From the NCBI GenBank assembly GCA_937921595.1, contig CAKZTD010000189.1, positions 1-64,000 of the forward strand: a stretch of DNA of 64,000 nt, written 5' to 3'. Position numbers and translations under genes: made by a program. Under the pieces are notes generated by a model, which saw only the letters and a list, made by a program, of their open reading frames with translations, had not been told where the DNA came from and did no database searches. Each line of letters begins with the position of its first letter. Position 1 is the first letter of the stretch. Positions 31,706 to 50,671 of the stretch are shown piece after piece. This stretch comes from an uncultured Saprospiraceae bacterium (GTDB lineage: Bacteria; Bacteroidota; Bacteroidia; Chitinophagales; Saprospiraceae).

Positions 31706-31719
31706 TTGATAAAAGTCAA
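31706..31719 (+). promoter_or_regulatory. FNR/CRP-type operator upstream of the DnaJ operon
   Basis: TTGAT-AAAA-GTCAA, one mismatch from the FNR-family palindrome TTGAT-N4-ATCAA. A further TTGAT follows at 31728-31732, exactly 22 bp after the first. The same arrangement precedes the acetyl-CoA synthetase gene (37328-37341) and the gene at 43814-44350. The binding regulator is inferred, not seen. Confidence 0.65.
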
Positions 31720-31796
31720 TAATAGCATTGATTATTGTACGCTTTTTTATGGGGCACCCTTGGTATATTGTGGGTATAAGAATTAAAACAGTCTAT

Positions 31797-31843
31797 ATGG
31801 CCAATCCCTTTATTCAAAAAGGGCTCTGTCAATTGGAAAACTT
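31797..31843 (+). pseudogene. Decayed 5' end of an acetyl-CoA synthetase gene
   Basis: ATGGCCAATCCC...AAAAAGGG...TTGGAAAA aligns with the first 46 bp of the acetyl-CoA synthetase gene at 37416 (ATGGCTCTCCCC...AAAAAAAGG...TTGGAAAA) with a net 2-bp length difference. The upstream 90 bp, including the FNR-type box, also align. It looks like a relic of a duplicated promoter plus gene start, now part of the leader of the 31879 gene. The remaining gap 31494-31705 shows no gene; it should hold the maeB promoter. Confidence 0.6.
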
Positions 31844-31878
31844 GTTATTCGTTTTATCAATTTCTAAAAAACAAATAC

Positions 31879-32217
31879 ATGATAGCTGAAAATAATAATC
31901 ATAGATTTGACAACCTTTTACAAGCTGTCAAGCAAATTAGGAAAGAAGGCTTCACCATTGAATTTGTTTCTAGTGAACATGGATTTGTCAATCCTGAAAA
32001 TAATAAAACTTATTTGCCAAAAAGTATTTGTATGGTTGAAGTCATTAGATTAAATGCCCCTCTTTCAGAACCTGACGAGGAAAGTATTTTGTATTTATTA
32101 AAAACGGATGATGGCCAAAAAGGATGGATAAGTGATTCTTATTCGATTTATGCAGATACTAATTTGATAGAACATATCAACAGCATCAGAGAACATATTA
32201 GTACCATTACAAAATGA
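31879..32217 (+). CDS. Small conserved protein, 'phosphoribosylpyrophosphate synthetase'-labelled family (112 aa)
   Basis: No signal peptide. The start [29 protein letters not shown] and the end [33 protein letters not shown] fit a family of about 100-residue Bacteroidota proteins that databases often label 'phosphoribosylpyrophosphate synthetase'; their pattern is a predicted helix, a small sheet, then SxDGxKGxLxxAYGxYAD. The label is probably wrong, since no PRPP-synthetase motif is present. The stop overlaps the DnaJ start as ATGA, so both are one operon, and the FNR-type box lies 160 bp upstream. A stress role is inferred from that context. Confidence 0.65.
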
Positions 32218-33143
32218 ATTATAAAGATTATTACAAAACATTGGGCGTAAAGAAAGATGCTTCTCAAAAAGAGATTAAAAAAGCTTATCGAAAACTAGCC
32301 TCCAAGTATCACCCTGACAAAAATCAAGGAGACAAAACTGCCGAAGAAAAATTTAAAGAAATAAATGAGGCATATGAAGTGATCGGCAATGCTGATAAAC
32401 GAAAAAAATATGACACCCTCGGTTCTAATTGGGAAGCCTACCAGCAAGGAGGTGGAGACTGGGAACAGTACGCTCAGCAAGGTCAACGAAGAAGTGGAAG
32501 AGGAGGTGGACAAACTTACACTTTTGAAGGTGACCCTTCTAGTTTCTTTGAGATGTTCTTTGGAGGCGGCGGTGAAGGTTTTTCCAGCCAAGGTCGTAGA
32601 CAAAGAAATTTTCGCGGTCAAAGTATTGAAGCAGAGATGCCTGTTACTTTGCTCGAGGCCTATCAGGGTAGTAAGCGGACATTTGAACTAAATGGAAAAA
32701 AAATGCGGATTACCATTAAGCCAGGTGCTTATAATAACCAAAGACTTCGGATCAAAGGCAAAGGTCAGTCAGGTGCAAACGGTGGGGCTCCGGGAGATCT
32801 TTTTATTATCCTAAAAATTCAACGGGACGCTCGATTTACAAGAAAAGGTGATGACCTGAAACTCGATGCTAATGTGGATTTGTATACCGCTATTTTGGGT
32901 GGAAAGATTGAAATTCCAACCATGACGGGTTCCGTAAAATTACCCATTCCAAAAGGAAGCGAAAGTGGAAAAGTTCTTCGTTTAAAAAATAAAGGAATGC
33001 CTAAATATGGGAAATCTGGCGAGTTTGGTCATTTGTTAGTTAAACTCCATGTGACACTACCGAAAAAATTAAGCGAAAAAGAAGAGGATTTATTTAAAAA
33101 ATTAAAGGCACTTCAGGAAGTTGAACCGGTGAATAGTCAGTAA
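32214..33143 (+). CDS. cbpA: CbpA-type DnaJ co-chaperone (309 aa)
   Basis: J domain at residues 1-70 with the catalytic HPD (KYHPDKNQG), which stimulates the ATPase of DnaK/Hsp70. A Gly/Phe-rich stretch follows (about 80-130: [29 protein letters not shown]), and then the two C-terminal substrate-binding beta domains ([92 protein letters not shown]). The DnaJ zinc finger is absent, as in CbpA/DnaJ-B proteins. Translationally coupled to the small gene before it; the pair sits behind an FNR-type operator. The gene symbol is by domain type. Confidence 0.9.
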
Positions 33144-33192
33144 TAGTACTTTAGTGCATCAAGCCATATTCATTGATCAAAAATTGTAAAAA

Positions 33193-33545
33193 ATGGAACT
33201 TGTAATTTTTCAACAAGAATATAATTTTGAAGAATCTTTAAACAATTTTAGAGACTTGCTTTATAGTAGTCAAACGAAATATCTCGCAAGTGATTTACTC
33301 CAGGAAGGCTTACCATATATAGAGATCCGAATGGTCCCGTACAAAAAGCAATGACCATTTGTCAAACTGCCGAAATGGAAATCAGACAACATTTTATTCC
33401 TCTTTACACCCAAGTCGATGGAATTTTGATTAATGACTACAAACTCTCTCGATTGGCTTATAGTTTAGTGATCTTAAATGCGGATGTAAGTAATCCTCTA
33501 GTAGCATATTGGCAACTCAAAGTGATGAAGGATTTTTTGAAGTAA
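33193..33545 (+). pseudogene. DinD/BRO-N-like small protein split by a -1 frameshift
   Basis: Frame 1 starts at ATG 33193 (MELVIFQQEYNFEESLNNFRDLLYSSQTKYLASDLLQEGLPYIEI...) and stops at TGA 33352-33354. The -1 frame continues from 33348 (AMTICQTAEMEIRQHFIPLY, then INDYKLSRLAYSLVILNADVSNPLVAYWQL) to 33545. Joined, the product of about 117 residues matches the order of conserved blocks in the N-terminal part of E. coli DinD (ARxLxxLLGY; KAxxxCxxxG; DHF; LSRxACYLVxxNxDxxxPxIAxxQ). The shift falls exactly at a run of five A followed by G (33343-33348), so a lost A or a programmed slip at AAAAAG are both possible. It lies 49 bp after the DnaJ gene. Confidence 0.6.
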
Positions 33546-33594
33546 AACAACAACATTCGATTTTTTATACCTCATATTATTTTTCAATTTGGTA

Positions 33595-35229: not shown

Positions 35230-35276
35230 TTATTTTATCGTCAATCTTTATTTTCGATTGATTTTGTTAAAAAATA

Positions 35277-36101
35277 TTATCCAAGGGCAACATCCAAAGT
35301 CATCATCAAAGCAAAGCCAATTATTGCAAAAATTGTTGCCAAATCAGTGTTTCCTTCCTGATGTGATTCTGGGATCAATTCTTCGATGACCACAAAGATC
35401 ATAGCACCTGCCGCAAATGACAAAGCATAAGGCAAAATTGCCTGCATACTCATTACCAATAAAGCACCTAAAACTCCTGCAATAGGTTCTACCATTCCGG
35501 ATAACTGTCCGTAGAAAAATGATTTACGTCTGGACATTTTCTCTCTTCTCAATGGAACGGATACCGCAGTTCCTTCTGGGAAATTTTGCAAACCAATACC
35601 AATGGTCAAAGCAATAGCCGCACCCATTGTAGCTGATGGTATTCCGTATGCGACCGCTCCAAATGCTACTCCAATCGCTAAACCTTCCGGAATATTATGC
35701 AAGGTAATCGCCAAGACCAATAACACACTTCTATGCCAACTTGTAGAGATGCCTTCGGTTTTACTTTCATCCAGGCCAGGATGCAAATGCGGTAATATTT
35801 TATCTAAAACAGCCAAAAAAAAACCTCCGGAAAGAAAGCCAATCAGTGCAGGCACCCACACTGGCAGATCACTAACATGTTCTGCCATTTCTATGGCTGG
35901 AGCCAGTAAAGACCAAAAACTCGCTGCGATCATTATCCCTGCCGCAAAGCCTAGCATAGCATCCAAAATTCGTTGATTGAATGTTTTAAATAAAAAGACA
36001 ACTGCTGCCCCTAAAGCCGTAACGCCCCAAGTAAATAATGTAGCAAAAAGTGCTTGTATTGCAGGATGGAATTGTATCAAAAAGTCTTCAATAGCTTGCA
36101 T
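35277..36101 (-). CDS. ZIP-family metal transporter, GufA/ZupT type (274 aa)
   Basis: Eight membrane segments with the ZIP metal-site helices IV and [12 protein letters not shown] (H135, N136, E139) and [11 protein letters not shown] (Q172, N173, E176), where Gln replaces the more common His. A conserved [13 protein letters not shown] ends the barrel part, and a His-poor loop ([19 protein letters not shown]) lies between helices III and IV. It should import Zn2+ or related divalent metals. It ends 47 bp before the thioredoxin-like gene, so it could head that operon. A perfect palindrome 12 bp upstream of its start may be its operator. Confidence 0.87.
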
Positions 36102-36113
36102 TTCTTATTTGGA

Positions 36114-36780: not shown

Positions 36781-37152
36781 TCACCTGACAAACTCAATAA
36801 CATGAGCACTAACTGTAATCGTTCTGGTATAATAAAAAGGAGGAACACCACCTATATGTTCTTCAGTAACAATATTGATTAGTGCTTTTGAATCAGCCAT
36901 GAGATTTGCATTATTCACCATATCAGCATAAGCATTTTCATATAATTGTTTCCGATTTTTGCCTCCAAAAAACAGTACATAATCTACCTCAGCACTTCCA
37001 GTGATTCTTTCCACTGTTTTATAATTATTTGTAGTAAGATGAACCTGAGTAGAATTTTGATTTAGATTGGCTACTAATGCATTATTGACCCCACAAGAAT
37101 TAAAAAAAAGCAGGGAGGTCAAAAGCATTATTGAAAATATTTTTTTTTTCAT
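36781..37152 (-). CDS. DUF6567-family lipoprotein (123 aa)
   Basis: Signal peptide MKKKIFSIMLLTSLLFFNSC with lipobox cysteine at residue 20. The mature domain (NSTQVHLTTNNYKTVERITGSAEVDYVLFFGGKNRKQLYENAYADMVNNANLMADSKALINIVTEEH and TITVSAHVIEF) has the DUF6567 pattern, a small outer-membrane or periplasmic fold also related to TRL-like proteins. An exact FNR-type palindrome lies 64 bp upstream with a TAATTTAC -7-like element in between, the best promoter architecture in this island. Function unknown. Confidence 0.75.
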   Translation of the reverse strand: MKKKIFSIMLLTSLLFFNSCGVNNALVANLNQNSTQVHLTTNNYKTVERITGSAEVDYVLFFGGKNRKQLYENAYADMVNNANLMADSKALINIVTEEHIGGVPPFYYTRTITVSAHVIEFVR

Positions 37153-37215
37153 AATTAATATTTTTTTTTAAATTGAAAGACAAGTGTAAATTATATCAAC
37201 TACATGAAATCTTTA

Positions 37216-37229
37216 TTGATTAACATCAA
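37216..37229 (-). promoter_or_regulatory. Perfect FNR-type operator upstream of the DUF6567 gene
   Basis: TTGAT-TAAC-ATCAA, an exact TTGAT-N4-ATCAA palindrome. Reading on the minus strand, TAATTTAC (similar to the -7 box TAnnTTTG) starts at 37193, about 30 bp from the operator centre, which places the operator near -41, the usual class II activator position. Confidence 0.7.
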
Positions 37230-37327
37230 TTGCTATTGTGATTTTTATTATGCTTTTCAAAATCACAAATCCACCATTCCGAATCAATAGTATCACCTTA
37301 CTTTGATTTTTCTATCCAAAACATTCA

Positions 37328-37341
37328 TTGATAAAAGTCAA
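37328..37341 (+). promoter_or_regulatory. FNR-type operator upstream of acetyl-CoA synthetase
   Basis: TTGAT-AAAA-GTCAA with a second TTGAT at 37350-37354, 22 bp after the first, identical in layout to the box at 31706-31719. Located 75-88 bp before the acetyl-CoA synthetase ATG. It and the perfect box at 37216 are divergent. Confidence 0.65.
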
Positions 37342-37415
37342 CAACCGCATTGATAAATATGAGTTTTTTTATGCCTCATACTAACTAAATTGAGTAAAGT
37401 AATAAAACAATCAAT

Positions 37416-39170
37416 ATGGCTCTCCCCCCTACTTTAAAAAAAGGAACTGACAGTTGGAAAATCAAACCCAACTTATATGATTACCAAACCGTCAGTAAAA
37501 ACTTTAGTTGGAAATCTGTAAAATCAGCATTGGCAGGTTTGCCAAAAGGAAAAGGAATCAACATTGCTTATGAAGCCGTGGATCGTCATGCTAATGCTGA
37601 TCTTGCCCATCATACCGCTATCCGTTGGATCAGTAAAAAAGGGGAAACCCAGGATATCACTTATCAGGAGTTAAAAGCACAAACCAATCGCTTTGCCAAC
37701 GTCCTTCAACAATTGAAAATAAAAAAAGGAGAAGCTGTGTTTTCTATGATGGGACGTATTCCCGAATTGTATTTCACAGCTTTAGGTACTCTAAAAAATA
37801 CGAGTATTTTTTGCCCACTTTTCTCTGCTTTTGGACCAGAACCCATCTTACAAAGAATGGGAAAAGGCAAGGCTACGGTCTTGGTCACCACCACCAAATT
37901 ATATCAAAGGAAAATAAACAACATCTTGGAGCAACTACCTTCTTTAAGGTATGTTTTATTGACAGATGCTGAAAAAGACCTGAACGAAAAAGTACTTTCT
38001 CTTTCTGCATTAATGGAAGAGGCTTCGCATGATTTTGAAATCCCACCAACAGATCCAAATGATCCCGCTTTATTACATTTCACAAGTGGTACCACAGGAA
38101 TGCCCAAAGGAGCAGTACATATTCACAATGCAGTTTTGACTCATTATATGACTGGGAAATACGTTCTTGATTTTCAAGAAGGAGATATCTTTTGGTGTAC
38201 CGCTGATCCGGGTTGGGTCACTGGAACTTCCTATGGAATCATTTCTCCACTACTTCATGGAGTAACGAATATTGTCGCTGAAGCGGAGTTTGATGCCATT
38301 CAATGGTTCGAAATTTTGCAGCGAGAAAAGATCAACATCTGGTATACCGCACCTACTGCCATCCGAAGATTGATGCGGCTTGAAATAAAACCTAAAGATG
38401 TTTTTGACCTCAGCGCCCTTCGGCTCATTCATAGTGTTGGCGAACCTTTAAATCCTGAAGCTATTCTTTGGGCTCAGGATGCTTTGGGCATGCCTATTCA
38501 TGACAATTGGTGGCAGACAGAAACCGGTGGTATCATGATTAGTAATTTTCCTTCTGTTGAGATTAGACCAGGATCTATGGGCTTGCCTCTACCAGGAATC
38601 GAGGTAGTTATTTTAAAAAATAATAAAGAAGAATGGCAAGAAATCGATACGCCAGATACCGTTGGCGAACTAGCATTAAAAGTAGGATGGCCTTCTATGT
38701 TTGTCGCTTATCTGGAAGAAGAAGAGCGCTATAAAAAATGTTTTTATGGTGATTGGTATTTGACGGGAGATCTCGCAAAGGTAGACCAAGACGGATACTA
38801 TTGGTTTGTTGGCAGGAGCAAAGATATCATCAAAACTTCTGGCCATATGGTCGGTCCATTCGAAGTAGAATCCGCTTTAATGGAACATGAAGCAGTTGCA
38901 GAAGCAGCTGTCATCGGTATCCCTGACGAAGTAGCTGGAGAGATCGTCAAAGCCTTTGTTTCACTTAACAAAAATTATATCTGGGATGAAAAATTAAGAT
39001 TAGAGCTCATTGGTTTTTGCAGAAAAAAATTAGGCGCTGCGGTAGCTCCGAAAGTCATCGATTGTATAGCAAATCTACCAAAAACAAAAAGCGGAAAAAT
39101 CATGCGTCGTTTATTAAAAGCTCGTGAATTGGGATTACCGGAAGGTGATACATCTACTTTAGAAAAATAA
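37416..39170 (+). CDS. acsA: Acetyl-CoA synthetase, AcsA type (584 aa)
   Basis: AMP-forming acetate-CoA ligase, adenylating acetate with ATP and transferring it to CoA. Adenylation core motifs: [17 protein letters not shown] (P-loop-like A3), [23 protein letters not shown] (A5), [38 protein letters not shown] (A7/A8) and the C-terminal [12 protein letters not shown] with the catalytic Lys whose acetylation controls such enzymes. Length and the NWWQTE motif fit the AcsA subgroup rather than longer Acs. It is the first gene of a run leading into pyruvate dehydrogenase subunits (9-bp gap to the next), so acetate and pyruvate both feed acetyl-CoA from one locus. Confidence 0.92.
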
Positions 39171-39179
39171 ATACCCCTT

Positions 39180-40172
39180 ATGGATACTACAAGTAAAGAT
39201 TTAAAAATTCAATTGCCAGAAAAAGAAAAGGCACTGGATTTATTATACCAAATGATTTTGATCCGGCGCTTTGAAGAACGTTCGGCTGCTTTATATACGG
39301 AGCAAAAAATCAGAGGTTTTCTGCATTTATATATTGGAGAAGAAGCCGTGGCTGTCGGGGTTATGGATGCCCTAAGCAAAGACGATGCAGTACTTGCTAC
39401 CTATCGCGAACACGGTCATGCACTTGCTCGTGGAATGTCTGCCGAATCTATCATGGCAGAGATGTATGGCAAAGTAGAAGGCTGTAGCCGAGGCAGAGGA
39501 GGCTCTATGCATTTATTTGACAAAGCTTTAAAATTCTATGGTGGAAACGCGATCGTTGGTGGGCATCTTCCTTTAGCTGTTGGAATGGCATTGGCCAATA
39601 AAATGCAAGGAAAGAATCACATTGCCGTTTGTTTTTTTGGAGAAGGAGCAGTAGCAGAAGGAGAGTTTCATGAATCCATGAACCTTGCCGCTTTGTGGCA
39701 ATTGCCTGTTTTATTTGTTTGTGAAAACAATTTATACGCGATGGGAACTGCTTTGGAGATATCCGAATCTGAAATGGATATTTATAAAAAAGCAGCTAGT
39801 TATAAAGTAGCCTCTAGTCCGGTAGACGGCATGGATGTACTTGCTGTACAAAAAGCTGCCAAAGCAGCAGTGGATTATATCAAATCCGGGAAAGGGCCTT
39901 ATTTACTCGAAGCAAAAACGTACCGTTTTAAAGCTCACTCTATGTTCGATGCTCAACTATATCGCCAAAAATCTGAAGTGGAAGAATGGAAAGAGAAAGG
40001 GCCTATTGTCACTTTTACCGAACGATTAAAAGCAGCACAATTACTCGACGATGATACGCTTTCTAATATTGAAACCCGAGTAAGAAAGGAGATAGAACAT
40101 GCGGTACAATTTGCAGAAGACGGAAATTTAGAACCACTTGAGGATTTGAAAAAATTTGTGTACTCAACTTAG
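39180..40172 (+). CDS. pdhA: Pyruvate (2-oxoacid) dehydrogenase E1 alpha subunit (330 aa)
   Basis: Thiamine-diphosphate-dependent E1 alpha chain. Key blocks: [73 protein letters not shown], and the ThDP-Mg motif [20 protein letters not shown] ending [10 protein letters not shown]. The motif has GEG where GDG is usual, a variant I associate with a PdhA/AcoA subgroup. [14 protein letters not shown] near 258-270 is the phosphorylation-loop region ([16 protein letters not shown]). Nine bp follow acsA. The partner E1 beta is not adjacent: a lipoprotein gene and 518 bp separate them. Confidence 0.92.
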
Positions 40173-40690
40173 AAAACCTGGTCGTATAACTAAAAGTGTT
40201 GATGCTCTGAGAAGCTTACTCATAGGTAGGGGTATCCAAAAGAGGCATATAAAACGAAGCCACTTTTTTCTTCGATTCTTTTTTTCTGATACAAAAAGAA
40301 CCAAAAAAATCAAGGCTGTATACTTTTTTAAACGCAAAAATCAGTTCAAAATCCTAAATTCTAAATTCTAAAAACTCGGCTATGAGTTCTTTTTTCACAA
40401 ATGAATCAGTGATTATATTAGTTCCTGAAATAGTTCTTAGTATTGTGATGGCTCAAACAATTTATAATTCTTAACGGATCTTGAACTGATTTTTTCTAAA
40501 AAGTAAAAGGCCTATTCGAGTTTTGCCCTTAGTATCAGGAAATAATTTAATGAAAATATTTTTATAAAAATGGCTTCATAAAACAAATCTGAAATACATT
40601 ATTTTGAACAATCTGCAATGCAGATTTTATCCACCTTATTAACACATAAAAACACTATCGAAAATCTTAATCCATTTTAAAAATTTTATC
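40173..40690 (+). other. 518-bp gap inside the PDH cluster; hairpin and operator-like palindrome
   Basis: No gene is supported. TTCTTTTT (40276-40283) pairs with AAAAAGAA (40293-40300) to form a hairpin about 105 bp after pdhA that may end or slow the acsA-pdhA transcript. At 40610-40626 AATCTGCA-A-TGCAGATT is a perfect 8-1-8 inverted repeat 64 bp before the next ATG, so it may be the operator of the lipoprotein gene. Between them the sequence is A+T rich with short direct repeats (CTAAATTCTAAATTCTAAA near 40353). Confidence 0.5.
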
Positions 40691-41245
40691 ATGAAAATAT
40701 ATAAAATAATTTTAGCTTCATTAATAATCCTAGGCCTTTCTACTTGTTCAACTACTTCAACAATCACCAGCGAATATAAAAAAGGAAGTAGTCTCGATAT
40801 TTCTAAAACTTATCAATTATTAAAACAAGAGGACGATTTCTCTTATGGTGTAAATCCTATTCACCAACAGTATATTGAAAGTGCTATTACACAAAACATG
40901 ATGATGCTTGATTATAAATTAAGCTCGGAACCTGATCTGCTCGTTTCTTATTTTGTAAAAGAAAAACTAGTTCAGGAAAAAGAGATTAAATACCGAGGCT
41001 ATTATAACCAAGCAGGTCTTCCACTTTGGGAAAATGTCATCGAATATGAGGAAGGCACTTTGATTATTGATCTCATCAATCAAGATGACAATAAGGTCAT
41101 CTGGCATGGTGCAGCAGCAAGAAAAATCTCTGATAAATTGTCCAATGCTAAGGCTGAAGAAAATATTACAAAAACAGTACAATCACTCCTTCAACGATTC
41201 GATCAAGAAGTGATTTTTTCTGAAGGATTAACAAATACCAACTAA
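40691..41245 (+). CDS. DUF4136-family lipoprotein (184 aa)
   Basis: Lipoprotein signal [19 protein letters not shown] (lipobox Cys19), followed by [25 protein letters not shown] and the DUF4136 core: [28 protein letters not shown], then [31 protein letters not shown] and the terminal helix [17 protein letters not shown]4136 proteins are periplasmic or outer-membrane lipoproteins of unknown function. It ends 10 bp before the E1 beta gene, so they probably share a transcript, an odd position inside a metabolic cluster. Confidence 0.82.
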
Positions 41246-41255
41246 AAATAGTAGC

Positions 41256-42263
41256 ATGCTTGAAGTACAACAAGACACCATCGAAACCACTTATCGAGAA
41301 GCCATCCGAATGGCAATCCGAGAAGCGATGCAAAATGATGAACGTGTTTTTTTAATGGGCGAAGATGTAGGAAACTATGGTGGTTGCTTTGCAGTCAGCA
41401 TGGGATTACTCGAGGAATTTGGCCCGGAAAGAATCAGAGATACTCCCCTATCCGAATCCGCATTTGTAGGTATTGGAATTGGTGCCGCTTTAGCAGGTAT
41501 GAAACCCATCGTCGAAGTCATGACCGTCAATTTTAGTCTGCTCGCTTTGGATCAAATCATGAATAATGCGGCGACTCTACTGCACATGTCCGGAGGCTTG
41601 TTTAATGTTCCAGTGGTCATCCGAATGGCGACTGGAGGAGGCAAGCAATTAGCAGCTCAACACTCCCATAGTCTGGAAGGTTGGTATGCTCATATTCCAG
41701 GATTAAAAGTATTAACTCCTGCGACTTTGGAAGATGCACGATGGATGCTGGCTGCAGCACTTGAAGATCCTGACCCTGTTTTGATTTTTGAAAATTCTAC
41801 TTTATACAATAAAAAAGGAAGTATTTCTACTGAAGTAAACAAAGTTAATATTGACAAAGCCAGCGTCGTCAGAAACGGCAAAGACCTGAGCATCATAACT
41901 TACGGAATCGGACTCTCTAAATCTTTGGAAGCCGCAGAGATTTTAAAAAATGAAGGCATTGATGTGGAGGTGATCGATCTACGGATTTTAAGACCACTCG
42001 ACACCGAGACTATTATTCAATCTGTCAAAAAAACACATCGTGTATTGATCGTAGATGAAGGCTGGCGTAGCGGTGGTATCTCTGCAGAAATTAGCGCCCG
42101 AATCAACGAAAATGCGTTCTATGATCTGGACACTCCAGTGAGTCGACTTTGTGGAGAAGAAGTACCGATGCCTTATGCTAAACATTTGGAACATGCTTCA
42201 GTCCCTCAAATAGAAACAATTGTTAAACAATGCAAAAATATATTACAACATGAGCGAGTATAA
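41256..42263 (+). CDS. pdhB: Pyruvate (2-oxoacid) dehydrogenase E1 beta subunit (335 aa)
   Basis: Transketolase-like E1 beta chain that completes the E1 active site. Blocks: [108 protein letters not shown], and the C-terminal transketolase-like part ([46 protein letters not shown]). It overlaps the E2 start by 14 bp. Confidence 0.93.
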
Positions 42264-43563
42264 AATGCCCAGCCTAGGTGCTGATATGGAAGATGCTATT
42301 CTGATAGAATGGAAAGTCAAAGAAGGAGACTCGGTTCAAAATGGAGATATCATCGCTGAAATCGAAACTGTAAAAGGAGACATAGATGTGGAAGTTTTTG
42401 AAGATGGTGTCGTCGAAAAAATCATCGCCCAACCGGGGCAAAAACTCCCAGTAGGAACAGTATTAGCTTATATCAAAACAGATATCTCAAGCAGTCCGAA
42501 AGAAGCCCCCGATGAGCAGCCTCCAAAAGAAATTCCTCCGGTAGAAATTCCTCCGGTAAGCGATCCACCACCGACTATTCCTCCGGTTGAAATACCGTCG
42601 CCAGCTCCTGATCCGATACGCGAGCCAAGTCCACCAGAGATCACTCCAGTGAAAGATCCGATTCGAAAACCTACTCCTCCGGAAGTCGTCCTTCCTATGA
42701 CAAGTATCAATGAAAAAAACAGACCAAGAGCTTCCCCGCTTGCTAGAAAAATGGCTCAGAATCTCGGGATCGATTTACAGCAAATAAAAAGCAGTAATGA
42801 ATCTGGAGTTATTCATAAAGTGGATATCGAAAGCTTTATAAAAAACAAAAGTAAGAATCTCAAACCAGTCATTCAAGTTAAAGAACCGCAGGAGTCAAAG
42901 AAAAATAAAATGCGCTCTGCTATAGCAGCAGCTATGAGTAAATCAAATCGAGAAATTCCTCATTATTATTTGGAGACTTCTATTGATATGAAAATAGCAT
43001 TGGATTGGCTAAGGAAAGAAAATAGCAAACGCTCCATTAGTGACCGTGTCCTTCCTGCAGCGCTTTTAATCAAAGCGACAGCACTTGCACTTGCTGAAGT
43101 TCCAAACCTAAATGCCTATTGGACAAATGAAGGACTCCAACAAAAAGAAAATATTAATATCGGATTTACCATTTCGCTTAGACAAGGAGGACTGGTCATT
43201 CCTGCAATTCAGAAAGCGAACCAAAAAACACTGGATGTTTTAATGGAAGAATTATCAGATATTATCCAAAGGGCACGTACTGCAAAATTGCGAAGTTCTG
43301 AATTGACGACAGGTACGGTTACGATTACCAATGTCGGAGAAAGAGGGGCAGAAAAAGTATTCGGAATCATCTATCCTCCGCAAGTTGCATTGATTGGTTT
43401 TGGAAAGATTATTGAAAAGCCCTGGGCCATAAATGGTCTCTTAGGTATTCGTCCTGTTTTGAGTGTTACGCTAGCTGCTGATCATCGAGCTACAGATGGA
43501 ATAATCGGCTCTCGTTTTTTAGAAAAATTAAATCAATTATTACAAAATCCTCATCAATTATGA
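42250..43563 (+). CDS. pdhC: Dihydrolipoamide acyltransferase, E2 subunit (437 aa)
   Basis: The start is ATG 42250 ([27 protein letters not shown]), inside the end of pdhB; an upstream TTG frame is not needed. One lipoyl domain at residues 1-77, with the lipoylated Lys at K42 in IETVKGDI. A Pro-rich linker (about 85-160) contains repeated IPPVE and PxPxE units. The peripheral-subunit-binding domain ([37 protein letters not shown]) is at about 165-205, and the catalytic acetyltransferase domain at 225-437 ends with DHRATDG, the catalytic HRxxxDG. It forms the core that binds E1 and E3. No E3 (dihydrolipoamide dehydrogenase) gene is in the window. The stop overlaps the acyl carrier protein start. 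Confidence 0.92.
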
Positions 43564-43811
43564 ATACGTCTGACCCTGAATTTATAAAAACGGAGATTCT
43601 GAAAATCCTGAATAAAATTGCTCCTGAAATTGATCCGGATACCGTCGATCCTCAAAATGAAATTACCTACGAATTCGAAATAGATTCCATGGATTTCTTA
43701 AGGATGGTGGTCAAGATCGACGAGGTATTTGGTATCGAAATACCGGAAGCGGAATATGGCGAAATTACGACACTGGAAAAACTATTAACTTATCTTGCAA
43801 AAAGCAATTAG
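43560..43811 (+). CDS. Acyl carrier protein (83 aa)
   Basis: Four-helix ACP with the phosphopantetheine attachment serine S43 in FEIDSMDFLRM, flanked by acidic residues (PEIDPDTVDPQNEITYEFEIDSMDF; EVFGIEIPEAEYGEITTLEKL). It differs from the housekeeping ACP (DSLD) and starts at ATG 43560, overlapping the E2 stop as ATGA, so it is made with the PDH complex. Its carrier role with PDH is unknown: it could receive acetyl groups from this acetyl-CoA source or belong to an unseen acyl pathway. Confidence 0.88.
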   Translation: MNTSDPEFIKTEILKILNKIAPEIDPDTVDPQNEITYEFEIDSMDFLRMVVKIDEVFGIEIPEAEYGEITTLEKLLTYLAKSN

Positions 43812-43813: not shown

Positions 43814-44350
43814 TTAAGCTTCGTAATTAGTGCTTTGAATAAAAGCACTTTCTAAAACATAGTCATTTTTACGATAAGAAAGATCATCCAATTCTTCTTC
43901 CATCACTAAATCGCCATCACCATCAACACTAAATCGCTCTTCCATTTCGTCTCGTTCTACTTTTGTATAATTGTCAATATTTTTAAAAAAGGTATTATCA
44001 AAATCAACTTCTATGATGGTATCTTCAATCAATTCTTTCGCCTTAGCAAAAAGCCAGTTAAAAAGATGTACATCTCCTTTTACTTTTTGATTGTGATCAT
44101 AAGCCATAATGTACAAATCATCGACTAAGTCTTCTGCTTTATATTTCCCTCCAGGAATAATATTATTTTTCTCCAACTTCGATAATTGCCAACTAAAAAA
44201 TTCTTTAATCCTTGGTAAGAAACCGACCATTCTTTGATTAAAAACTACTAACTCATTCTGAGAAATTACCCGTTCTCCAGAGGCAGGAATAGTTGCCGTA
44301 AATGTTTGAATCACTCGTTGCCAAATTTGTTCTTTAATTATATTTTTCAT
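43814..44350 (-). CDS. Sigma-70-region-2-like protein of unknown function (178 aa)
   Basis: Cytoplasmic, acidic. Residues 20-115 resemble the region 2 helices of sigma-70 factors: FNQRMVGFLPRIKEFFSWQLSK, then KYKAEDLVDDLYIMAYDHNQKVKGDVHLFNWLFAKAKELIEDT, where AEDLVDDLYIMAY has the pattern of the sigma core-binding helix (AEDLVQETFLRAW). No region 4 follows; the rest is acidic (ERDEMEERFSVDGDGDLVMEEELDDL). It could be a partial sigma-like or anti-sigma-mimic protein. Convergent with the ACP gene (2-bp gap). A box TTGAT-AAAA-CTCAA lies 70 bp upstream. The sigma relationship is tentative. Confidence 0.6.
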   Translation of the reverse strand: MKNIIKEQIWQRVIQTFTATIPASGERVISQNELVVFNQRMVGFLPRIKEFFSWQLSKLEKNNIIPGGKYKAEDLVDDLYIMAYDHNQKVKGDVHLFNWLFAKAKELIEDTIIEVDFDNTFFKNIDNYTKVERDEMEERFSVDGDGDLVMEEELDDLSYRKNDYVLESAFIQSTNYEA

Positions 44351-44419
44351 CGTATTATTATTTTACTTAAAGTTTTAAAAAATTACCAATTCAGACTATG
44401 AAGTAAATCAATCGAGGCT

Positions 44420-44433
44420 TTGAGTTTTATCAA
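44420..44433 (-). promoter_or_regulatory. FNR-type operator between divergent genes 44350 and 44520
   Basis: On the minus strand TTGAT-AAAA-CTCAA, one mismatch from the palindrome, with a further TTGAT 22 bp from the first, the same layout as the boxes at 31706 and 37328. It may control the sigma-like gene, and possibly the DUF4386 gene on the other side. Confidence 0.55.
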
Positions 44434-44519: not shown

Positions 44520-45236
44520 ATGAATTCAATTAAAAACACAGGAAAGATTATCGGCGCCTTTTTTCTAATTGTAATGCTATTGTGGTACATAGGGTTTGCC
44601 TTGATAGACCCCATTCTAGATTCTCCAGATTATCTGATTCTAATTCCTCAAAACCAAACTAAAATAACCATTGGAGTACTCTCCGAATTAATCGAAATAG
44701 CTGGAGTAATGGGTATTACTTTTTTGATTTTTCCAATCTTAAAAAAGTATGAAGAAAACATGGCCATTGCCTATGTTGGATTCAGGGTTTTTGAATGCAT
44801 CATGCTTCTTGTTGCGCTAATTTGTCCACTAATCCTAATCACATTGAGCCAACAATATACCGAAGGAGGGGTTCCGGATAATTCCTATTTTCAGATCTTT
44901 GGTATTCTACTAATCGAAATCCGACAATACTGGAGTCTTTTCATACTTTCGTTTTTTCATCCTCTTGCTGCTTTGATTTTCTATTACTATTTGTATCAGA
45001 CAAAACTAGTTCCCAAATTCCTTTCCGTCTGGGGATTTTTAGCTGCTTCATTTCTTTTAATCGATCAAGTTGTGTTAGAATCTTTCGGCCTTGGACTTGG
45101 AAGAGAATTAGGAAATATTATAACCGGTAGCCTTATGGGTTTAAATGAAATAGCGCTAGGCATCTGGTTGCTTATCAAGGGATTCAATCCATCCGTGATC
45201 ATTGATAAATCTGTTAAAAAAGGTCTTGTTATGTAA
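44520..45236 (+). CDS. DUF4386-family membrane protein (238 aa)
   Basis: Six or seven hydrophobic segments and the DUF4386 pattern: an N-terminal helix (GKIIGAFFLIVMLLWYIGFALIDPIL), ITIGVLSELIEIAGVMGITFLIFPILKKYEENMAIAYVGFRVFECIMLL, and SLMGLNEIALGIWLLIKGFNP at the end. The helix IAYVGFRVFECI is the family signature. Integral to the inner membrane; function unknown. A decayed second copy follows. Confidence 0.82.
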   Translation: MNSIKNTGKIIGAFFLIVMLLWYIGFALIDPILDSPDYLILIPQNQTKITIGVLSELIEIAGVMGITFLIFPILKKYEENMAIAYVGFRVFECIMLLVALICPLILITLSQQYTEGGVPDNSYFQIFGILLIEIRQYWSLFILSFFHPLAALIFYYYLYQTKLVPKFLSVWGFLAASFLLIDQVVLESFGLGLGRELGNIITGSLMGLNEIALGIWLLIKGFNPSVIIDKSVKKGLVM

Positions 45237-45266
45237 ACTGAAATCAGGTTTTATAAATTCAACTAT

Positions 45267-45941
45267 ATGAAAAAACCTAGTCCCAAATCTATCACAATAT
45301 AAAGCAGCAAGGTTCGCCGGTTTCCTATTCCTTTTTATTTTAACCGCTATTGTGCTTAATCCCCTTGCATTCTCCAATATTATTGACACCGAAAATGCCC
45401 CTTAAATACGGTTAAGAATATCATTACTAAAACCTGGTTACTTCGAATAGGTATCATCAATGAGTTGATTCTATCTGTTGCTACAATATTTTTAGCTTTA
45501 GCGCTTTTCAAAACACTCCAACCGATAAACAAATATCTCGCGCTACTTGGGTTTTCTTTGAAACTCGCTGAAGCGGCCCTTTCGGCCACTATCGCATTGC
45601 TCAGTTTTATTGCTTTGCAATTTTTAGATCAAGCAAGCGATTTGACAATAAATTCTTCAAAAGAACTACATATTTTTTTCAACAAGCATGATACCCTCTA
45701 TACTATACCAATGGTATTTCTTGGATTGAACTTAGTCGTGTTATCTTATTTATTTTTCAAGTCCGGATATATTCCAAAGCTTTTAGCAGGCTTAGGAATC
45801 ATTTCCTATGCCCTTGTTTTCATTTTTGCAATCACAAGTATTTTGCTTCCAACATACAATATGTTAATCCTGACTATACCAAGTATATTTTTCGAATTGA
45901 TCATTGGTATTTGGCTTTTAATTAAAGGGAATGGAAGCTAA
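45267..45941 (+). pseudogene. Second DUF4386 copy, broken by at least two frameshifts
   Basis: From ATG 45267 the reading frame shifts at about 45298 (after MKKPSPKSITI), resumes as QYKAARFAGFLFLFILTAIV and ends at a stop near 45404, then resumes again as NTVKNIITKTWLLRIGIINELILSV and runs to the true family end GIWLLIKGNGS at 45941. The last 158 codons have no ATG at their beginning. Together the pieces reproduce the DUF4386 order seen in the upstream gene, so this is a degenerating tandem duplicate, unless sequencing errors caused the shifts. Confidence 0.75.
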
Positions 45942-45978: not shown

Positions 45979-45992
45979 TTGATTGCAATCAA
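45979..45992 (+). promoter_or_regulatory. Perfect FNR-type operator upstream of the CCPxF/CPKC gene
   Basis: TTGAT-TGCA-ATCAA, an exact palindrome, 92 bp before the ATG at 46085. The following TCAATAATCAGCAT resembles TCAATAATAGCAT after the box at 31706. Confidence 0.65.
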
Positions 45993-46084
45993 TAATCAGC
46001 ATATCAAAAATCAATTTAACTAAGCCTCAAATAGATTACTTTTAAAAATAGACTTCCAATAATTCAGTTCCAATAAAAAAAATC

Positions 46085-46624
46085 ATGAATACTACAAGCA
46101 CCAAAACCACCTCAGAATGTTGTCCAGTATTTCATTCTGAAAAATGGGATAATAAAACATTCAATTGGAATAAAAAGAAATTTTTAATCGCCTCCATCCC
46201 TACTCTTTTTCATATTCCTTTTCCTCCAATGATTGCAAAAAAGGTAACGAAGATGATGAAAATGGCAGAAGATGCTCATCAAACGATGAATGACAAAGAA
46301 AATATTCTATTGCTTTTCACAGACCCTCATCCATTTAAAACAGAAATGTATTTATCCGTAAAAGGTCTAGTACCTGAAGCAAAGAACACTACTCTTTCGG
46401 GAGCATTTATAAGCAAAACTTTTAAAGGTGATCATAGAGATATTCCAAATTTCATAAAACAAATGGACACCTATTTAAAGGAGCAGAATAAACAGGCTGA
46501 AGAATTCTATGTGCATTATGCTTATTGCCCAAAATGTGCTAAAGAAGCTGGACATAATTATATGGTATTTTTCGCCAAGGTTGGTGAATCTGAAGCAATA
46601 TTAAAAAATCTTAAAATCAAATAA
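46085..46624 (+). CDS. CCPxF/CPKC cysteine-motif protein, 'hydrolase'-labelled family (179 aa)
   Basis: No export signal. The N-terminus carries TSECCPVFHSEKWDNKTFNWNKKKFL (C13, C14) and the C-terminus HYAYCPKCAKEAGHNYMVFFAKV (C154, C157). Between them lies a domain with IPFPPMIAKKVTKMMKMAEDA and LSGAFISKTFKGDHRDIPNFIKQMDTYL. This double-cysteine arrangement (CCPxF ... CPKCAKxxGxNY) marks a small family often annotated only as hydrolase; no catalytic triad supports that name. Redox or metal binding through the cysteines is possible. The stop overlaps the next start as TAATG. Confidence 0.72.
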   Translation: MNTTSTKTTSECCPVFHSEKWDNKTFNWNKKKFLIASIPTLFHIPFPPMIAKKVTKMMKMAEDAHQTMNDKENILLLFTDPHPFKTEMYLSVKGLVPEAKNTTLSGAFISKTFKGDHRDIPNFIKQMDTYLKEQNKQAEEFYVHYAYCPKCAKEAGHNYMVFFAKVGESEAILKNLKIK

Positions 46625-47541: not shown

Positions 47542-47586
47542 GATTTTTGGACTTCTTACTTAAGCCATAGAAAAGTGACATTAAAT

Positions 47587-48045
47587 ATGAATACAAAAAG
47601 TTATATCGGATTTAGAATACTCATAATCTTTAGTATAATATTATTGATCTTTTTATTGGTCGGTCAGAGTTTTGCACTAATCAATTACGATTTTTTGGTA
47701 TCCATAGGATTGCAAGAATCTGTTGAAGAAATTACACTTGTTGGAATTGCTTTTGCTAAAGGTTTTGCTTTTGGAGATACGGTGATTTACATCCCTTTAA
47801 TTATCGCCGGAGTAGTTGGATTATTAAAAAGAAAACGCTGGGGGTTTCATGCATTTTTTGGCAGTTTAGCCATCTCTGTTTACTGGCCATTGGTTCATCT
47901 TTTTGCTATTATTATAGAACAAGAAGCCATTACCTTACCCCCTGGCAAATATCTTTCGTTCTATATTATCTTACCCTTGATTGCCAGCTATGGTTTATGG
48001 GGAATGTGGTACCTGTACAAGCATCAAAACATATTGATGAAATAA
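47587..48045 (+). CDS. Small four-helix membrane protein (152 aa)
   Basis: The start is placed at ATG 47587 (MNTKSYIGFRILIIFSIILLIFLLVGQ); the GTG four codons earlier is less likely. Four hydrophobic segments at about residues 8-28, 55-78, 85-108 and 123-145, with basic short loops (LLKRKRWGFHAFF). Inner membrane. No family recognised. A hairpin ATTGTTTG-AAA-CAAACAAT follows at 48071-48089, possibly its terminator. Confidence 0.68.
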   Translation: MNTKSYIGFRILIIFSIILLIFLLVGQSFALINYDFLVSIGLQESVEEITLVGIAFAKGFAFGDTVIYIPLIIAGVVGLLKRKRWGFHAFFGSLAISVYWPLVHLFAIIIEQEAITLPPGKYLSFYIILPLIASYGLWGMWYLYKHQNILMK

Positions 48046-48827
48046 AACTTAAACCCCATTCAACAAATTGATTGTTTGAAACAAACAATAGATTAAGCCT
48101 TTAGCATTTTTACTATGGCAACTACTTTTGCCTCTAAACAAATTGTGATTCCTGAGCATTTTGAATTTAGCAATTCTTATTTTCTATCTTCTACATACAT
48201 ATAAAATAAATCAATTGATCAATAACAATTCACCAATTGACGAGCATCATTTGACAAAGCTGAAACTCGACGTATATTTGAATTATCAAGTGAGAGATAA
48301 AAGACAGGTCGGAATGACGACCAGAATAAATTGACAATAACCCGGAAATTTTTTCTTCCTCGGAAGCGAAATCGGGAAGGTGCAATTGTTACTTTAATCA
48401 GATTCCAGGCTAATATTTTCTTCGAAATTATTATGAATGGATGAAGTCTCAATAACTGTAACTTGGCATGTTTTAGTGTTTTTAAATGCTATAAACTGGA
48501 ACGGGAATTCTTTTTATTAAGGATTCCCGTTTGTGTGTTTAGTAGACTAAAAACAACATCATTAGCTCCTCTTCATTTTCACCCCAAAGCTTTTTATAAA
48601 ACAGAGCAAGCCTTTACCTTCATCCGCATCCATTTTATTTTAGATGGTCGTCCCATATTTTTATAGTCTCGATGATGGTTATCCTTTAATTTTAAGCACA
48701 ACAGGAACAAGAACAGATATGGCAATAAACTTTTGCCTTGATATAGATCAAAAAACAATTGTTAGTCCGAAAGAAAACCTCCCTTCATATCTTATGCACA
48801 TTACCTGACTTTGCCAAGTAGAACAGA
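48046..48827. other. 782-bp gene-poor region with hairpins and possible gene relics
   Basis: No intact gene is supported. Contents: a hairpin at 48071-48089 (8-bp arms); a stretch near 48240-48440 with scattered short frames (for example EGAIVTLIRFQANIFFEIIMNG on the plus strand) that look like relics without recognisable parents; a strong hairpin AACGGGAAT (48500-48508) / ATTCCCGTT (48523-48531); and an FNR-type palindrome at 48738. The strand of any relic is uncertain. Confidence 0.45.
48738..48751. promoter_or_regulatory. Perfect FNR-type palindrome without an obvious target gene
   Basis: TTGAT-ATAG-ATCAA. The nearest gene on either side is oriented toward it (gene ending at 48828 on the minus strand) or absent for over 2 kb (plus strand). 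It may mark the promoter of a decayed gene or of a small RNA. Confidence 0.45.
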
Positions 48828-49094
48828 TCAGTTATCCTTCTTCAACTCTTTATCAATCATTCGGTCAAGGAGCTTAGGTTTTCCAGTAAACAGGAATACA
48901 GTCAAAGCATGAAACAACAAACCAATCCCCCAACCCATAAATGGATATTTGACCCAAAAAAATTCCGGATTACTATTTAAGTTGACCATCAAGAGTAAAA
49001 TATTCACAGCTATAAAAACGGAAAGGTGAATATAAAAACCCATTTTGGCTTTTGCTCTTTTTTTAGCTTTTTGATACATTTCTTGATTTTCCAT
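48828..49094 (-). CDS. 2TM-domain protein (88 aa)
   Basis: Matches the 2TM domain pattern: a charged start (MENQEMYQKAKKRAKAKMGFYIHLSVFIAVNILLLMVNL), an aromatic loop (NSNPEFFWVKYPFMGWGIGLLFHALTVFLF) and a basic tail (KPKLLDRMIDKELKKDN). Two transmembrane helices in hairpin form, cytosolic ends. Such domains occur alone or fused to LytTR regulators and histidine kinases in Bacteroidota. Downstream of the barrel protein gene by 49 bp on the same strand. Role unknown. Confidence 0.85.
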   Translation of the reverse strand: MENQEMYQKAKKRAKAKMGFYIHLSVFIAVNILLLMVNLNSNPEFFWVKYPFMGWGIGLLFHALTVFLFTGKPKLLDRMIDKELKKDN

Positions 49095-49143
49095 AATTCT
49101 TTATTTTGGTTATTAAACCTTATTTATACAAGATTTTTTTCAT

Positions 49144-49764
49144 TTAAAAACAGTACCCTATTGTCATCAACCACCTACTTGGGCTCTGAGAAAAATCAAT
49201 TTGCTTTTCTCCAACATTCATATGCTCCCCAAAATCATTGAAATTGCCTTCGTATCGAACATCTACTAAAAGATTAAAAATATCCAAACCAATTCCAGCT
49301 TGATAACCTAGAGTAAAATCTTTAAAGTTTTGCGAATACTCTTTTATAGCAAACAACTCTGACTTATTCTTTAAATAAGCATGACCAACCGGGCCAACTT
49401 CTAAGCGTAAGGCTCCTATTTTATAACCTGCCATCAGCGGAATATCAAGGTATTGATATTTTTCATTTAACACTTTGTTGACCAAACCATTTCCTGAGTC
49501 ATCTATATCAAAATCAACTCTGTTAGAATTAAATAATACCTCTGGCTGTAAATAAACTTTTTCAGAAAAAGTTACTCTACTAAAAAAGCCAAAATGAAAA
49601 CCATACTTCGCTTCTTTTATGGCTATTTTCAAACTGCTCTCTTCTATGGTTTCTTTTTGCAAATTAGAAGTAGAAAGACCCGCTCTTATTCCGACTTTAA
49701 ATTGAGTGTGTCCAGTAAACGGAAAGAGCAAAGATACTATGACGAAAAACATTACATTTTTCAT
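49144..49764 (-). CDS. PorT-family outer-membrane beta-barrel protein (206 aa)
   Basis: The ATG at 49764 gives a signal peptide MKNVMFFVIVSLLFPFTGHTQ; a longer frame to 49812 is less likely. Opening VGIRAGLSTSNL, YGFHFGFFSRVTFSEKVYLQPEVLFNSNRV, YLDIPLMAGYKIGALRLEVGPVG and the last strand ...RWLMTIGYCF are typical of the outer-membrane beta-barrel (PorT/OMP_b-brl) family, 8-stranded. Terminal Phe supports Bam-dependent insertion. Upstream, at 49864-49936, is a large inverted repeat. Confidence 0.82.
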   Translation of the reverse strand: MKNVMFFVIVSLLFPFTGHTQFKVGIRAGLSTSNLQKETIEESSLKIAIKEAKYGFHFGFFSRVTFSEKVYLQPEVLFNSNRVDFDIDDSGNGLVNKVLNEKYQYLDIPLMAGYKIGALRLEVGPVGHAYLKNKSELFAIKEYSQNFKDFTLGYQAGIGLDIFNLLVDVRYEGNFNDFGEHMNVGEKQIDFSQSPSRWLMTIGYCF

Positions 49765-49863
49765 GGTTATATTATTTTGATTTTCAGATCTTTTTTTAAC
49801 TTTCTTTAACAAAACTGTAGAAAATTCGGAAGTGCTAATTCAATGTATTGATAAGATGGATAG

Positions 49864-49936
49864 AACCTCCGGGGTTTAAAAACAAGCCATTTATTGAATT
49901 TTAGTTTCGGAATTACTTTGAGCAACCCCCGAGGTT
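49864..49936. repeat. Inverted repeat AACCTCCGGGGTT ... AACCCCCGAGGTT
   Basis: Thirteen-bp arms at 49864-49876 and 49924-49936 with one mismatch, separated by 47 bp. It sits between the PRTase stop and the outer-membrane barrel start. Likely a dispersed intergenic element; a boundary or terminator role is possible. Confidence 0.5.
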
Positions 49937-49975
49937 TTTCAGAGCATCAACATTTGAAGAGACACTACCAAAAAT

Positions 49976-50611
49976 TCAATCCATACTTAAGGATGAAGCT
50001 TGAGTGAGCAATCTCTTGACTTCTTCATCCGTGACCTGTTGAAAATTTTCGTAATAACGTCCAACCGAACGAAAGTCTCTTGGTATCCGAAGGCTAATTA
50101 TTTCGTCAGGTATTGAAGACGCCCTCAACATTTCGACAGAACTTCGAGAACAAACAGGAGTGGCAATCACAATCTTCTTTGGTTGCTGCTCTTGGATCAA
50201 TTCTAATGTCGAAAGCATCGTATAACCCGTTGCTATTCCATCATCTACAATGATCACATTTTTATCCGTCAGAGGAATATGAGCTTTGTCTTCATAATAC
50301 CAATGAAATCGCTCTCGGAGTAATTCACGTAGACGTTTCGTTTCGTTTTCGATATAAAAATCAGGAACATCAATAGAACCATCCAATACTCGACTTTCCA
50401 AACTTACTGCACCAATAGCATACTCTTTTTGAAGTGGATGACTGATTTTTTTAGATAAAACAATCTCTAAAGGGAAACCTAAATAATCTGCAACTATTTT
50501 CCCTATGGGCACCCCTCCTCGTGGAATAGCGATGACCACACCTTCAGTATTTTTATAGGATTCTAATTTTTTAGCAAGCTGTTTTCCAGCATCAATTCGG
50601 TTTTCAAACAT
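49976..50611 (-). CDS. Phosphoribosyltransferase-family protein (211 aa)
   Basis: The start is ATG 50611 (MFENRIDAGKQLAKKLESYKNTEGVVIAIPRGGVPIG). Type I PRTase fold: VVIAIPRGGVPIGKIVADYLGFPLEIV, KISHPLQKEYAIGAVS (flexible loop) and the PRPP-binding signature KNVIIVDDGIATGYTM. The 'FxxRxxAGxxLA ... RGGVPxA' beginning belongs to the stand-alone predicted PRTase group often encoded near universal-stress genes and dienelactone hydrolase-like fusions; nucleotide salvage is not shown. A one-mismatch FNR-type box lies 47 bp upstream. Confidence 0.85.
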   Translation of the reverse strand: MFENRIDAGKQLAKKLESYKNTEGVVIAIPRGGVPIGKIVADYLGFPLEIVLSKKISHPLQKEYAIGAVSLESRVLDGSIDVPDFYIENETKRLRELLRERFHWYYEDKAHIPLTDKNVIIVDDGIATGYTMLSTLELIQEQQPKKIVIATPVCSRSSVEMLRASSIPDEIISLRIPRDFRSVGRYYENFQQVTDEEVKRLLTQASSLSMD

Positions 50612-50657
50612 AATGTTATTTTGCAATACAAAATAAGCTCTTCTCTTTTTACTTCCT

Positions 50658-50671
50658 TTGATCAATCTCAA
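50658..50671 (-). promoter_or_regulatory. FNR-type operator upstream of the PRTase gene
   Basis: On the minus strand TTGAG-ATTG-ATCAA, one mismatch from TTGAT-N4-ATCAA, 47 bp before the ATG. Confidence 0.4.

Follow-up and report, generated by a model that had tools for sequence, protein, structure and literature searches.

A 64,000-nucleotide stretch from an uncultured Saprospiraceae bacterium (contig CAKZTD010000189.1, positions 1 to 64,000; hereafter the window, at its full length) carries palindromes of the form TTGAT-N4-ATCAA, which an initial annotation had read as the Fnr-type operators of a local regulon. The boxes are real, but the operator unit is a pair, TGAY-N4-RTCA, N10, TGAY-N4-RTCA, rather than the single palindrome. 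We assign a probability of about 0.75 to the reading that a FixL-like kinase and a response regulator of REC-cNMP_binding-HTH_Crp architecture, acting on these tandem operators, drive a genome-wide low-oxygen survival regulon.

Tandem operators and promoter grammar

All seven palindromes were found as placed by the initial annotation (exact at 37216, 45979, and 48738; one mismatch at 31706, 37328, 44420, and 50658), and their description as an FNR/FixK/DNR half-site pair was right in pointing to Crp/Fnr-type operators, although the unit proved to be two TGAY-N4-RTCA boxes 22 bp apart. The looser box was first read by eye in intergenic DNA around the fused regulator described below, and many 22-bp pairs then emerged when such boxes were listed for the genome studied here. 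In the window, 6 of the 7 boxes had a partner at an offset of 22 that agreed in 6 or more of 8 positions (P ~5e-9 against the intergenic background of the window), and none of the other offsets between 13 and 45 gave such a partner to more than 2 boxes; the summed best partner match of the seven boxes was 46 of 56 at offset 22 and 30 or less elsewhere in that range. Across the genome, tandem pairs with gaps of 3–20 numbered 24, comprising 19 with a gap of 10, one with 9, two with 11, and two elsewhere, and the reversed control yielded 2. The corresponding control in a phylum-wide search yielded 0 among the genomes listed.

The -7 element of Bacteroidota, TAnnTTTG, matched in 5 or all of its 6 positions, stood exactly 23 bp past the second box in 38 of 96 oriented exact tandems, whereas each of the other offsets from 0 to 99 bp accounted for 0–3 tandems. 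No column of the stretch that separates this element from the second box reached 0.4 bits. In Flavobacterium psychrophilum, TAnnTTTG is described as spanning -12 to -5 (PMC9723704). With that span, the boxes would centre at approximately -41.5 and -63.5 relative to a predicted start, a geometry that would fit a class II Crp/Fnr-dependent promoter, with its activator box at -41.5.

A matrix was trained on these 38 promoters, none of them from the window; because the training set was preselected for its -7 match (5 or more of 6 positions) and the window was left out, scans of the window constitute independent tests. The matrix gave ten oriented hits of at least 14 bits, all intergenic and between 37,186 and 50,723, compared with a mean of 0.41 and a maximum of 4 over 117 altered spacings. 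Seven of these hits lay 17–57 or 154 bp upstream of genes, namely those for DUF6567, acetate-CoA ligase, both divergent genes at 44.4 kb, a hydrolase, a phosphoribosyltransferase, and a 1553-aa protein. The best hit had no convincing open reading frame (ORF) downstream, and two hits of 16.7 and 16.2 bits, with the next start 135 and 146 bp ahead of them, probably represent tandems already counted, read from their opposite face. A 65-position profile built from the same 38 sequences (R1) ranked the sites at 31.7, 37.2, 37.3, 48.2, and 50.7 kb above every intragenic match.

One reading, suggested by the behavior of single boxes, is that an A+T-rich genome gave rise to the palindromes by chance. 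The window holds two more exact copies (16624 and 55003, both intragenic), giving 5 versus 0.34 in dinucleotide shuffles, and the whole 8.04-Mb genome holds 112 versus 16 in the reversed control, but both controls exaggerate single-box enrichment, the reversed pattern containing the stop TAG. In a sample of 60 contig pieces (731 kb) picked by contig number, the exact N4 box occurred at 2 intergenic and 8 coding sites, versus means of 0.9 and 6.6 for 16 other spacers (0–16), and the looser TGAY-N4-RTCA occurred 9 times upstream of genes, where other spacers averaged 5.2 and reached up to 13. Since N4 stood so near to the other spacers in this sample, most of the 112 genomic copies are probably chance words. 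The window was locally unusual, with 3 intergenic exact boxes in 7.0 kb versus ~0.15 expected at a sample rate derived from 2 sites only. The 22-bp phasing, the -7 phasing, the co-occurrence with the regulator (below), and the exclusively intergenic position of the window hits contradict the chance reading for the tandem set, and as an account of the palindromes as a whole we consider it extremely improbable. It remains the best explanation for the intragenic copies, including all 11 exact or one-mismatch matches in the first 31 kb, where the initial annotation had correctly seen none upstream of genes, and for the exact palindrome at 48738..48751. The latter, with a best 22-bp partner of 5 of 8, stands outside the tandem system in a 782-bp gap between convergent genes (47587-48045, plus strand; 48828-49094, minus strand), and it is the exception to the claim that the boxes precede genes. 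The genome-wide box count proposed with that claim went against the single box, in the 731 kb, and in favor of the paired operator.

A receiver fused to a Crp/Fnr body as the candidate regulator

The Crp/Fnr-family gene that the initial annotation had called for was sought in the genome, and seven proteins exceeded the Pfam HTH_Crp cut-off. Two of these are receiver-cNMP_binding-HTH_Crp fusions, each encoded directly after a histidine kinase. One fusion, P0002, scored 95.5 bits for Pfam Response_reg and, over the respective cut-offs, 75.2 for cNMP_binding and 51.6 for HTH_Crp, and the kinase and regulator genes overlap by 29 bp. The PAS domain of the C271 kinase aligned with the FixL chain 1dp6 (E 3.1e-30), including the HDxY (heme-proximal) histidine and the GIGR arginine that mark the heme-PAS domain of FixL; the C150 kinase carries the same FixL signature by pattern. 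A strong tandem lies upstream of the C271 kinase gene.

P0002 departs from FNR, FixK, and FixJ. Its only cysteine, Cys51, lies in the receiver domain, so that the N-terminal Fe-S cysteine set of FNR is absent, and it scored 82 bits against an NCBIfam Fnr cut-off of 228. Its score for NCBIfam FixK was 71 bits against 300, and it is fused to a receiver. FixJ consists of a receiver and a LuxR-type helix-turn-helix (HTH), whereas the HTH of P0002 is of the Crp type. The kinase scored 172 bits against the cut-off of 850 for the NCBIfam FixL equivalog. The expectation of an Fnr-family regulator over the block is upheld as to a single regulator of Crp/Fnr type, but not as to an Fe-S cluster of its own, the candidate being a response regulator with a Crp/Fnr body.

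We read 32 regulator loci, of which 6 had no kinase directly upstream, and the E and R of the recognition helix were kept in all 32, P0002 included. The idea that the helix serine reads the first T of TTGAT gained no support from a comparison of flanking bases between genomes with S-type regulators (T in 0.05 of 20 flanks) and I-type regulators (0.30 of 64), and it was dropped. DNA upstream of 29 fusion loci in other genomes contained 30 TGAY-N4-RTCA boxes versus a mean of 1.75 for 12 other spacers, a count in which only the spacer contrast is informative, the consensus having been read by eye from the same loci.

Homologues of the fusion (E≤1e-60) were present in 43 of 296 Bacteroidota genomes. 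The exact tandem occurred in 28 of the 43 genomes with the fusion and 10 of the 253 without (P 3e-20) and, within the same class only, in 28 of 43 versus 4 of 30 (P 1e-5), genomes being counted as independent in both tests. Such co-occurrence could also arise if the tandem were bound by another Crp/Fnr protein, for example the stand-alone C110 protein (helix ASREAVSRLL), with the fusion merely accompanying it. C110 has the E-SR helix and adjoins a tandem, its relatives (E≤1e-40) are found in 27 of 38 tandem genomes, and the five tandem genomes lacking the fusion in which the stand-alone Crp homologue was inspected all have an N-terminal CxxC and the same helix type in it. Within genomes having the fused regulator, however, the C110 type added nothing (P 1.0), the association between fusion and tandem persisted both with the C110 type (P 7e-8) and without it (P 3e-6), and a tandem stands upstream of the FixL-like kinase gene itself, all of which makes binding by such a protein quite unlikely. 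For the ten tandem genomes without the fusion, none of the matches listed spanned both of its parts. Because five of them have a CxxC-bearing Crp protein with the same helix type, the operator may predate the fusion; the stand-alone proteins (L310, L312, L313, L314, and L317) possibly represent an ancestral Fnr-like form.

A second alternative accepts the circuit and replaces oxygen with another signal, such as redox state, NO, or energy. Its support comes from the kinases encoded directly upstream of the regulator, 17 of 26 of which lack the FixL signature, whereas in the genome studied here both kinases have the signature, one PAS domain aligns with FixL, and CcoI and CcoNO are among the targets; we regard this alternative as unlikely here.

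Several observations weigh against assigning a low-oxygen regulon to the fused regulator. Single boxes, strict or loose, are without genome-wide enrichment, and their statistics were discarded as evidence because the spacer controls abolish it. Only one partner box in the window (50681) matches 8 of 8 positions, and most window tandems have one imperfect box. R1 scored the sites at 44.4 kb (11.8 bits, equal to an intragenic match) and 46.0 kb (a weak 7.7 bits, below several intragenic matches) no better than intragenic matches. The exact tandem is missing from 15 of the 43 regulator genomes and present in 10 of the 253 others, and the P values for co-occurrence ignore phylogeny. The FixL signature is present in only 9 of the 26 kinases encoded immediately before the regulator, so that some of these circuits may respond to a signal other than oxygen. 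The genome also encodes two regulator paralogues and other Crp-family proteins.

In the mechanism that we propose for the fused regulator, a FixL-like heme-PAS histidine kinase would probably sense low oxygen and phosphorylate a response regulator in which a complete Crp/Fnr body serves as the output. Two dimers would occupy neighboring boxes at a distance of two helical turns, at approximately -63.5 and -41.5, and the inner dimer would touch RNA polymerase at the sigma-A -7 element in class II activation. Genes of acetate and 2-oxoacid metabolism, redox genes, and those for a chaperone and a phosphoribosyltransferase would thereby be switched on, perhaps together with a small RNA. The scheme would correspond to the rhizobial FixL-FixJ-FixK cascade with the FixJ and FixK steps fused.

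Predicted regulon members in the window, the genome, and relatives

The regulon, described as local by the initial annotation, is instead genome-wide and clustered in islands. R1 gave 93 oriented hits at E≤1 in the genome. At 17 bits or more, these reduced to 38 distinct sites. Five contigs making up 3.2% of the genome held 25 of the sites, with 5 on the contig of the window versus 0.35 expected; sites of the other four contigs were in the training set, and those of the window contig were not. A 1.37-Mb scan, which includes stretches picked for having boxes, gave 70 oriented hits of at least 19 bits, 7 of them intragenic.

Of 50 listed target genes, 26, picked partly by appearance, were submitted to Pfam. 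The identified products included three universal stress proteins, a CBS protein, and HSP20, in a batch in which 4 of 10 proteins had no Pfam match, followed by a fourth universal stress protein, a CcoI-type ATPase, a beta-CASP nuclease, acetyl-CoA hydrolase, a P-type ATPase, a sulfate permease, and a phospholipase D-type synthase. Promoters were also found upstream of a CcoNO fusion (COX1 + FixO; 21.7 bits, 294 bp) and ClpB (21.4 bits, 157 bp), and the FixL-like kinase gene is itself preceded by a composite promoter. In other genomes, the first listed tandem adjoined hemA (twice), hemH, and genes for NiFe hydrogenase, HypA, a PAS kinase, a HemN-like radical-SAM protein, five universal stress proteins, CcoI, HSP20, NrdD, flavodoxin, two P-type ATPases, an S30AE protein, and a BON protein; these 20 genes were chosen by eye from 29 loci, so that unrecognised classes are under-represented, and not all of their tandems carry the -7 element. 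The suggestion of a low-oxygen or dormancy programme is largely borne out by the CcoI, CcoNO, universal stress protein, HSP20, ClpB, and FixL-like kinase targets, and is refined to paired operators, a two-component sensor, and a genome-wide reach. A protein of ~115–123 aa with a PFLRIE/PYLRIE-type stretch was seen by eye to recur beside the regulator or a tandem promoter (L027:4117-4482, L191, L240).

Two operators of the window lie back to back at 37 kb. The tandem TGATTAACATCA (37217) and TGATTTTTATTA (37239), 22 bp apart with a partner match of 7/8 at +22, forms a minus-strand promoter (37186..37250; 21.4 bits, R1 20.3) toward the DUF6567 gene (36781-37152), the end of its -7 element being 34 bp from the gene start. 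On the plus strand, a composite promoter (37329..37393; partner 7/8, 21.3 bits, R1 15.7) comprises TGATAAAAGTCA (37329), TGATAAATATGA (37351), and TAAATTGA (37386), and its -7 element ends 23 bp upstream of the ATG at 37416. It precedes a probable operon (37416..43811, plus strand) encoding acetate-CoA ligase (37416), 2-oxoacid dehydrogenase E1 alpha (39180), a lipoprotein-like ORF (40691), E1 beta (41256), E2 (42250), and an acyl carrier protein (43560); all identities except that of the ORF at 40691 are from Pfam, and the ligase exceeded the cut-off of NCBIfam acetate-CoA ligase NF003313.

The closest named relative of the ligase, with 72% identity, is in L107, a Bacteroidetes metagenome-assembled genome. 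There, a cassette that by eye looks the same, with a similar gene order, lies behind a tandem with a 23-bp period, for which the score was 30.9 bits in the direction of the ligase and 34.2 bits in that of a divergent CBS-like gene; the ligase promoter of L107 was outside the training set, and another promoter of L107 was inside it. Only one of 80 family genomes, the one studied here, has a ligase homologue at E≤1e-100, and the relatives collected from 75 loci come from many phyla, including delta-, epsilon-, and betaproteobacteria and Chloroflexi. An enrichment of TGAY-N4-RTCA upstream of the ligase (7 occurrences in 6 of 41 loci, two of which share the box sequence, where other spacers averaged 1.3) is suggestive only, the 41 loci having been hand-picked from the 75 with most Chloroflexi left out. 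A single TTGAY-N4-GTCAA box stands in the upstream DNA of five proteobacterial ligase loci (L132, L135-L138).

Three further tandems lie between divergent genes. At 44399..44432, TGAAGTAAATCA (44399) and TGAGTTTTATCA (44421; partner 7/8 at -22) separate a minus-strand gene with a weak sigma-70 match (43814-44350) from a plus-strand DUF4386 gene (44520-45236), with 18.9 bits on the plus and 18.5 on the minus strand. At 50628..50723, TGATCAATCTCA (50659) and TGACTATTATCA (50681), the 8/8 pair, are common to a Pribosyltran (Pfam) phosphoribosyltransferase gene (49976-50611, minus strand; 20.3 bits, 17 bp from the start) and the gene for the 1553-aa protein (50877-55538, plus strand; 27.2 bits, 154 bp from the start). 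A weaker tandem at 31707..31740, TGATAAAAGTCA and TGATTATTGTAC (partner 6/8), separates the malic enzyme-phosphotransacetylase gene (29208-31493, minus strand) from a DnaJ pair (31879-33143, plus strand). It was absent among hits of at least 13 bits at strict spacing and fits only with 1-bp freedom (13.5 bits on the plus strand, 21.2 on the minus), with an R1 score of 21.1 bits on the minus strand. A composite promoter at 45980..46044 (plus strand; TGATTGCAATCA, TATCAAAAATCA at 46002, and TACTTTTA; partner 6/8, 17.7 bits) lies 41 bp upstream of a Bact_hydrolase (CCPxF) gene at 46085, followed by an SDR gene at 46624.

The -7 stretches at 31764 and 37386, those of twin promoters, are TATATTGT and TAAATTGA and are nearer to TAnnTTGY (SM5), a type described for F. 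psychrophilum, than to TAnnTTTG. By eye, 33194-33540 and 45240-45941 resemble broken gene remains, the second adjoining the intact DUF4386 gene, and 35277-36101 encodes a ZIP-type transporter, a look-alike of which adjoins the fused regulator in the same-genus genome L308.

The best composite promoter of the window, at 48216..48280 on the plus strand (TGATCAATAACA, TGACGAGCATCA at 48238, and TATATTTG at 48273; 28.8 bits, R1 20 bits), is followed by ~250 nt in which no ORF is convincing; the first one downstream (67 aa, 48463-48666) overlaps a strong intrinsic terminator detected by a terminator scan (stem 48499-48532; hairpin -22.4 kcal/mol, z -5.45). Together, the promoter, the interval, and the terminator define a candidate low-oxygen small RNA at 48285..48535 (plus strand), with both ends predicted. 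No Rfam match was found inside this interval, and BLAST of 48281-48620 against the sequences compiled in the analysis returned only the self-match. A second candidate, of 431 bases on C91, has another copy in its own genome (84%) and, in a search of 150 family genomes, only 29–36-base matches in 4 other genomes. At 9025-10177 of L042 (minus strand), two more composite promoters without a near ORF were seen, the ~400 nt downstream being 84% identical between them; these stretches end in hairpin-like sequence similar by eye to the terminator in the window and occur in their own genome only, among 150 family genomes. FnrS is a small RNA of enterobacteria under an Fnr-type operator. The possible small RNA described here resembles it in that respect, compared by description only, and differs in that the second candidate has no long match in 149 other family genomes.

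Relation to known oxygen-responsive systems

The closest counterparts are the rhizobial FixL-FixJ-FixK and hFixL-FxkR-FixK systems, which share with the present one a FixL-type PAS kinase, a Crp/Fnr output, a related box, and cco and heme synthesis targets. The rhizobial "anaerobox" is TTGAT-N4-ATCAA (PMC7888657), and cco and heme synthesis are described among the targets of the FixL-FixK system (PMC4999443). In contrast to these systems, the receiver and Crp/Fnr body here form one protein with no separate fixK step, and the operators come as pairs with a 22-bp period; the activating anaeroboxes listed for Rlv3841 lie at -32 to -34, and a further anaerobox of fnrN, located at -2, is repressing (PMC7888657).

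With FNR, FnrN, and ANR, the candidate regulator shares Crp/Fnr domains, the E..(S)R helix, TGAY...RTCA half-sites, and a predicted class II spacing, the helix and half-site being those of FNR, but it differs from them in its missing Fe-S cysteine set and a sub-threshold NCBIfam Fnr score. DosRST, the mycobacterial dormancy regulon system, combines heme-based sensing with the LuxR-type response regulator DosR. It resembles the present system in heme-based sensing, which is predicted here, and in stress protein, alpha-crystallin, and phosphoribosyltransferase targets and differs in its output, which here is of the Crp/Fnr type.

In F. psychrophilum, oxygen limitation is described as inducing cbb3 oxidase and heme synthesis, and the words Crp and Fnr are absent from the main text of that study (PMC9723704). 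Searches of one open-access library, judged mostly by titles and the openings of abstracts, yielded no description of such a regulator or operator in Bacteroidota. We lean, by a modest degree, toward the broader view that a wide group of Bacteroidota possesses an undescribed low-oxygen regulon. In it, a FixL-like kinase would directly phosphorylate a Crp/Fnr-type activator able to act only when two dimers occupy a 22-bp tandem, a one-step version of FixL-FixJ-FixK that would control high-affinity respiration, dormancy proteins, an acetyl-CoA module, and small RNAs. The composite rule, with boxes 22 bp apart and a -7 element 23 bp further on, allows members of the regulon to be predicted at the level of single bases and oxygen control in Bacteroidota to be tested directly, and the fused regulator would be a clean example of a one-component sensor body rewired into the output of a two-component system.

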